Source: Ruminococcus bovis (GTDB taxonomy: Bacteria; Bacillota; Clostridia; Oscillospirales; Acutalibacteraceae). Taken from it: a stretch of DNA of 64,000 nucleotides. Location of the stretch: assembly GCF_005601135.1 (NCBI RefSeq), contig NZ_CP039381.1, positions 1,299,941 to 1,363,940 on the forward strand, given 5' to 3'. Below are positions 30,259 to 52,930 of this stretch, piece by piece; position 1 is the stretch's first letter; each line of letters opens with the position of its first letter. Made by a program: the position numbers and the translations under genes. Below the pieces are notes generated by a model, which did no database searches, was not told the origin of the DNA, and was given only the letters and a program-made list of their open reading frames with translations.

Positions 30259-30355
30259 ATATTTTGTGGACTGTATTCTTATGAAATAGTACCACATACA
30301 ATGTTTTTTAATATCCTTTTATAGCTTATATCCGTAAGGAATGGGACTTTGGGTG

Positions 30356-50552: not shown

Positions 50553-51335
50553 ATGATATTACAAGGTTTAATAATTATTTTAATTCCATTTTTGGGAACA
50601 TCCCTTGGCTCGGCATTGGTGTTGTTTTCTAAAAATCAATTAAATCCAAAATTGCAAAAGTTTATGCTTGGTTTTGCATCGGGAATAATGATTGCTGCTT
50701 CTGTGTGGTCACTGTTAATTCCATCAATGGAACTTGCTGAGGAAAAGGGAATAGTAAAGTATATTCCGGCAAGTGTGGGGTTTTTGTTAGGTATAGGCTT
50801 TTTATTGTTGCTGGATAGTGTGATTCCTCATCTTCATTTAGACAGTAATCAACCTGAAGGTGTAAAGTCCAGTCTTTCAAAAAGTACAATGCTTGTTCTG
50901 GCAGTTACTCTACATAATATTCCGGAGGGAATGGCAGTAGGCATTACTTTTGCAAGTGCAATGATGAAGGATACAAGTATTTCAGTAGCAGGTGCTTTTT
51001 CTTTGGCAGTAGGTATCGCAATTCAAAATTTTCCGGAAGGTGCAATAATTTCTTTGCCACTAAAGGATAGAGGAATGAACAAAGGAAAGGCTTTTGTTAT
51101 GGGTGTGCTTTCAGGTGTAGTTGAGCCTATCGGTGCAGTACTTACATTAGTATTTGCAAGTATGATAAGTTCTATATTGCCATACTTTTTGTCTTTTGCT
51201 GCCGGTGCAATGATTTATGTTGTAACTGAGGAGCTTATTCCTGAGTCACAACAAGGCAAACATTCTAATATCGGTACAATCGGTGTAGCAGTAGGTTTTG
51301 TTGTTATGATGGTACTTGACTCAGCCTTTGGATAA
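50553..51335 (+). CDS. ZIP-family divalent metal transporter
   Basis: ZIP proteins import Zn2+, Fe2+ or Mn2+. The 260-residue protein has eight hydrophobic helices. The metal-site motifs are intact: HNIPEGMAVG in helix 4 and QNFPEGAIIS in helix 5, with a His/acidic loop (PHLHLDSNQPEG) and TEELIPESQ near the end. This is the ZupT/GufA type. AGGTAGGTGAAAA precedes the ATG. No metal-responsive operator is visible. Confidence 0.92.
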   Translation: MILQGLIIILIPFLGTSLGSALVLFSKNQLNPKLQKFMLGFASGIMIAASVWSLLIPSMELAEEKGIVKYIPASVGFLLGIGFLLLLDSVIPHLHLDSNQPEGVKSSLSKSTMLVLAVTLHNIPEGMAVGITFASAMMKDTSISVAGAFSLAVGIAIQNFPEGAIISLPLKDRGMNKGKAFVMGVLSGVVEPIGAVLTLVFASMISSILPYFLSFAAGAMIYVVTEELIPESQQGKHSNIGTIGVAVGFVVMMVLDSAFG

Positions 51336-51465: not shown

Positions 51466-51495
51466 TTGACATTTTGAAAATAAATGATATATAAT
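51466..51495 (+). promoter_or_regulatory. eno: Promoter of eno
   Basis: A consensus TTGACA and TATAAT are 18 bases apart, 143 bases before the enolase start. Transcription should begin near 51502. Confidence 0.88.
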
Positions 51496-51501
51496 AGATG
51501 C

Positions 51502-51621
51502 AGTTAGCGGAGGCTAACTAAAATAAATATTACAGACAATCTATGTATTTTTACTTAACTTTTTTCTTTGATTTGTTTGAGTTTCCGAAAGGGAGTGCTT
51601 ACCTTTCGGAAGATTGTCTGT
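51502..51621 (+). ncRNA. Structured 5' leader of eno, possible cis-regulatory RNA
   Basis: Three perfect pairings fill the leader: AGTTAGC/GCTAACT on a GGAG tetraloop (51502-51519), a long-range 11-bp stem ACAGACAATCT/AGATTGTCTGT (51532-51542 with 51611-51621) and, inside it, a 10-bp hairpin TTCCGAAAGG/CCTTTCGGAA (51583-51592 with 51602-51611) with a nine-base loop. A 40-base U-rich strand fills the rest. The ribosome site AGGAG follows three bases after the closing stem. No T-run follows, so it is not a terminator. I match it to no known riboswitch. Confidence 0.6.
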
Positions 51622-51637
51622 CTTAGGAGAGTGTTAA

Positions 51638-52930
<1,293 letters not shown>

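Follow-up and report, generated by a model that had tools for sequence, protein, structure and literature searches.

The enolase locus and the fold of its leader

In the window, i.e., the whole stretch of 64,000 nucleotides that was analysed, the + strand carries an eno gene at 51638..52930, which starts with ATG at 51638 and encodes a 430 aa enolase (TIGR01060, 678 bits), as the first-pass annotation had supposed. A sigma-70-type promoter organized as TTGACA-18-TATAAT (51466..51495, + strand) is located immediately before the leader and, again as supposed, is a consensus one, matching at 12/12 positions. The gene just upstream of eno encodes a ZIP-family metal transporter (PF02535, window 50553-51335). 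Elsewhere in the window, at 30267-30353, we noted the Rfam pan motif RF01749, a known cis-regulatory RNA (48.3 bits). The relatives of the window place it close to Ruminococcus bromii, with the enolase of G060 being 91% identical. The genome encodes two enolases, the second of which (G000:C1:55569-56801) is 61% identical to that of the window.

The leader begins with the palindrome AGTTAGC-GGAG-GCTAACT (51502..51519, + strand), described earlier as hairpin 1 and read here as the putative start-site operator for an iron-responsive repressor. It is followed on the same strand by a long-range stem of 11 bp, P2, formed by 51532..51542 and 51611..51621. Within P2 lie a segment that is unpaired in the centroid fold (51552..51581) and an inner hairpin, P3 (51584..51610), in which the strands 51584-51592 and 51602-51610 form 9 bp around the loop GAGTGCTTA. 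The 3′ strand of P2 closes three bases 5′ of the eno ribosome-binding site AGGAG (51625..51629), which starts at 51625, exactly where it had been expected. The three perfect stems proposed from the sequence are all present as placed, except that the inner hairpin comprises 9 bp, not 10, and the stem ends required small corrections. The minimum energy computed for the leader (51502-51660) is -41.2 kcal/mol, vs. -28.0 +/- 3.7 kcal/mol for 200 dinucleotide shuffles (z -3.54), none of which (0/200) folded as low.

A putative iron operator at the transcription start

We found that GTTAGC-N4-GCTAAC is present in exactly three copies in the genome, one before eno and two before DUF3793-flavodoxin genes, and that sites with one mismatch precede feoA, feoB and ABC transporter genes. 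The sites in relatives are similarly positioned, i.e., before DUF3793-flavodoxin (L242, L253, L248), feoAAB (L254) and ABC exporter genes (L244, probably L251). As for eno itself, GTTAG-N6-CTAAC occurs at most 300 bases upstream in 45 of the 80 related enolase loci, mostly of Lachnospiraceae, and is usually located directly 3′ of a -10-like box. The view that eno possesses a conserved regulatory leader is borne out.

The palindrome core is invariant in all 21 aligned Lachnospiraceae leaders (21/21), where a double change affects the outermost pair only. Given a core that hardly ever varies between leaders and the recurrence of the palindrome before iron-uptake genes, stem 1 is most likely a DNA site, and a main role as an RNA hairpin, as first proposed, was rejected on the same grounds. 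The sharing of the palindrome with feo and flavodoxin genes points to iron. We conclude from these sequence patterns that an iron-responsive repressor most likely uses stem 1, located where eno transcription starts, as its operator. In two large Lachnospiraceae genomes, the palindrome showed no enrichment over its reversed control. A candidate for its regulator is the protein encoded at G000:C1:667862-668035, the one DtxR-family match in the genome.

Several further observations concern operator-like sites. None was found near the second enolase gene, among the sites listed, and the two enolases may represent an iron-replete and an iron-starved pair. In R. bromii (L245), the exact palindrome precedes a gene closely similar to the ZIP-family transporter gene of the window. 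At least three full operator-like palindromes are crowded upstream of feoA-feoA-feoB (L074:8100-8320), with a further one at the feoA2-feoB junction (L074:7547). A leader of about 300 nt before DUF3793-flavodoxin (G000:C1:1485585-1485972; L073:5586-5973) begins with the eno-type operator; it contains the motif CATGTGAACTC and a stem formed over a long range by TTGTTGTCACA and TGTGACAACAA. It represents a candidate second regulatory RNA, for which the genome search found no antisense target.

Pairing of the leader with the nifU-like/GGGtGRT operon

When the leader was compared with its own genome, one significant second match was obtained. It lies 80 kb away in the opposite orientation, where it covers the ribosome site of a nifU-like gene (E 4.5e-6 and 6.5e-6; next eno-leader match E 0.52), and is the genome's only significant antisense match. 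Positions 51552-51581 pair with positions -32 to -3 of this gene (G000:C1:1271456) over 30 consecutive bases, including 2 G-U pairs. The U-rich single strand, which had been thought able to bind a protein or an RNA, is complementary to the ribosome site of another mRNA. Ranked by duplex energy among 152 start regions, of which 151 were controls from sampled stretches of the genome, the nifU-like target was the strongest partner of this single-stranded segment (-40.4 vs. -28.1 kcal/mol for the best control). In the target operon, the nifU-like gene comes first and a GGGtGRT gene next. The latter is firmly assigned (466 bits); support for the NifU identity is weak, with an E of 5.8e-5 to TIGR03419 that does not reach the family cut-off. 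Iron-sparing RNAs have several targets, whereas this search returned a single significant antisense partner for the leader in its genome, although short seeds could escape it.

The same target was recovered in relatives. Once eno leaders are set aside, the top match in each of G060, G034, G061 and G002 is antisense to it (E 2e-5 to 2e-3). The operator-led eno leaders of Ruminococcus and Lachnospiraceae possess a corresponding antisense segment, which in most cases spans the start codon of the nifU-like gene in the same genome. Five leaders (L105, L106, L110, L111, L118) gave weaker matches to other genes, which were discarded because an antisense relation to start regions was not evident. The sequence GAATAAATCATGTGGACTTCC in the leaders of R. 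bromii and three relatives is antisense to GGAGAAGTACA(C/T)ATGATTTATTC in the nifU-like gene of the respective genome; in other members of the genus, CTGTGTAATACATAAGCTTTCC faces GGAAAAGCTTATGTATTACACAG. G133 combines ATTCAT with ATGAAT where other genus members have ATACAT and ATGTAT. Lachnospiraceae leaders carry GTGAATAAATCATG-type seeds opposite the target ATGATTTATTCAC, and differences in the target codons are mirrored in the leader in L152, L168, L166, L170, L190, L129, L186 and L174, e.g., GTGTTTTGATCA with ATGATCAAAACAC in L152 and GAGAATAAGTCAT with ATGACTTATTCTC in L168. A joint search for the operator and GAATAAATCATG at most 25 bases apart detected 8 of 299 Lachnospiraceae genomes, a lower bound as the exact seed string skips variants; seven of the eight matches precede eno, and the reversed pattern gave none.

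We determined that at least 11 of the 13 target bases at +1 to +13 are matched in 29 of 37 genomes, vs. 0.28% of random shuffled leaders and 0/238 other genes of the same loci. The leader-target pairs of 31/37 genomes beat 100/100 shuffles, and when leaders and targets were swapped among genomes, the observed mean of 15.6 was never reached in 100,000 permutations (9.7 +/- 0.43). The 8/37 genomes with fewer than 11 matches are poor in the start-codon register. Two of them, that of the window and G209, pair in another register; in the window's genome the start-codon register is lost and the pairing is shifted upstream over the ribosome site. No convincing leader-target pairing was recognized in G151, G212, G213 and possibly G193 among the 37 genomes.

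In a gap-free alignment of 29 genomes, whose rows were picked for at least 11/13 matches so that columns +1 to +13 are biased towards pairing, 83.4% of the cells pair (shuffled, 68.8 +/- 1.1). Changes on both sides occur at 13 of the 20 leader-target pairs. They account for 72 cells, as opposed to 24.8 +/- 3.9 in shuffled and 5-15 in slid alignments, and the covariation score in trans is 0.360 (0.121 +/- 0.013 shuffled, at most 0.088 slid). The columns beyond the selection window (-3 to -1 and +14 to +15) contain many double changes too. Both the leader and the nifU-like start region are A+T-rich, and eno might simply be iron-regulated with an ordinary 5′ UTR, whose similarity to nifU-like would stem from base composition or an old duplication. 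Yet, neither dinucleotide shuffles nor the other genes at these loci come up to the match, and complementary changes on both sides at 13/20 positions contradict this explanation, which is left with a negligible probability. Leader and target instead appear to have co-evolved in trans across two bacterial families (Ruminococcus, Lachnospiraceae). As judged from the sequences, the eno leader has in common with iron-sparing antisense RNAs that it shows conserved base pairing to an mRNA for an iron protein where translation of that mRNA starts.

The inner stems are conserved over a narrower range. In the six R. bromii-type leaders (window and five relatives), 97% of the P2/P3 cells pair, which is more than in shuffled and slid versions of the alignment, and double-changed pairs were found three times in P2 and three times in P3. 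The forecast of covarying pairs in all three stems hence holds for P2 and P3 among the closest relatives and fails for stem 1 with its invariant core. A cis-acting riboswitch or structured leader that senses a metabolite and controls eno alone, as the first-pass annotation had imagined, would account for the covarying P2/P3 and for the conserved loop TGCTTACC of these leaders. It leaves unexplained the covariation in trans with another gene. Neither does it agree with the 21 Lachnospiraceae leaders, which share only the operator and the antisense seed and for which automatic alignment gave no common inner structure, nor with the Rfam search, where no family, RyhB and FsrA included, matched at gathering score and permissive thresholds yielded chance-level matches only. 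We consider such a leader very improbable. A metabolite riboswitch proper was rejected, as the inner fold aligns only among R. bromii-type leaders, short of a conserved core structure. The notion of a glycolytic-state or mRNA-stability sensor acting on eno in cis found no support. The strongest conserved feature is the trans pairing with the nifU-like/GGGtGRT mRNA. By eye, many Lachnospiraceae leaders show a stem closing around the SD-complementary strand. The probable task of P2 and P3 is to display the antisense strand while protecting the part of it that is complementary to the SD.

A proposed role in iron sparing

Based on the sequence comparisons, we propose, with a probability of roughly 85%, that the leader of the eno mRNA functions in trans as an antisense RNA whose synthesis is repressed by iron. 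With plentiful iron, a metalloregulator bound to the start-site palindrome would keep eno off. Under iron scarcity the operator would be released and the eno promoter would fire, and the exposed antisense strand could then anneal to the nifU-like/GGGtGRT mRNA at its ribosome site, its start codon or both. Such pairing would block translation of the target and spare iron while enolase is still made. The leader may act as part of the mRNA or as a small RNA cut off from it. It also seems likely, at a somewhat lower confidence, that in Lachnospiraceae and Ruminococcus a central glycolytic mRNA doubles in this manner as the antisense RNA for iron sparing, with low iron leading to enolase synthesis and silencing of NifU-like/GGGtGRT, and with co-evolution in trans. 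Enolase may be co-transcribed with the antisense leader simply because it belongs to the low-iron programme. The scan of the window detected no clear terminator on the + strand between the leader and eno that would define a separate transcript. In L235, a weak terminator-like GGGC-GTCA-GCCC-TTTTTT, recognized by eye and unreported by the terminator scan, comes after the antisense leader, as does a second operator nearer eno; this leader may be a stand-alone RNA form.

The direction of control might be reversed, with the nifU-like mRNA acting as the regulator that opens P2 upon pairing and alters translation or stability of eno. Opening of P2 could matter for eno in the window, where its 3′ strand ends three bases before the ribosome site. 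However, it is the target, not eno, whose start codon and ribosome site are covered by the conserved antisense, and in L040-L046 about 60-90 bases separate the P2-like stem from the ribosome site of eno further downstream. This renders the reverse direction unlikely, and we favor repression of the target by the leader.

RyhB of Escherichia coli is made at low iron and represses iron proteins by pairing with their start regions; it is a stand-alone, Hfq-dependent RNA with its own terminator and many targets. The low-iron logic proposed for the eno leader is alike, while the sequences are unrelated. In Firmicutes, the iron-repressed RNAs IsrR (Staphylococcus, PMC9410917) and FsrA (Bacillus subtilis, PMC12871923) pair with mRNAs of iron-using proteins. 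The eno leader would represent a similar iron-sparing response by RNA pairing. It differs in that IsrR and FsrA are separate small RNAs with several targets, whereas the leader starts the enolase mRNA, has one clear target in the window's genome and lacks a sequence match to any Rfam family. The sRNA derived from the rhlI 5′ UTR (PMC6786874) is likewise a regulatory RNA from an mRNA leader that acts in trans, as proposed here; the eno leader differs in that its target is a distant iron-sulphur operon and that the arrangement is conserved across two families. In the literature searched, we found no account of an enolase leader linked to iron in Clostridia.

Published data, from two species that may lack the leader, support the physiology and not the mechanism. 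In Clostridium pasteurianum at low iron, enolase is up 4.1- and 4.8-fold in the early phase (PMC5395762, Table 2), while GGGtGRT is down 7.1-fold and the NifU-related protein 2.4- to 3.7-fold (PMC5395762). In the iron stimulon of B. thetaiotaomicron, GGGtGRT/NifU genes are at -11 to -12.8 (PMC10434189). The proteomic pattern could be explained by transcription alone.

For the dominant gut Clostridia, little is known about how RNAs control the use of iron. Pairing between two mRNAs that is dedicated and co-evolving would join glycolysis to iron-sulphur metabolism, give a testable function to the abundant, uncharacterised GGGtGRT operon and could explain the rise of enolase with the fall of NifU/GGGtGRT at low iron. 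The long covariation in trans between an antisense leader and one target in many genera also represents a clear natural data set for the co-evolution of RNA pairs.
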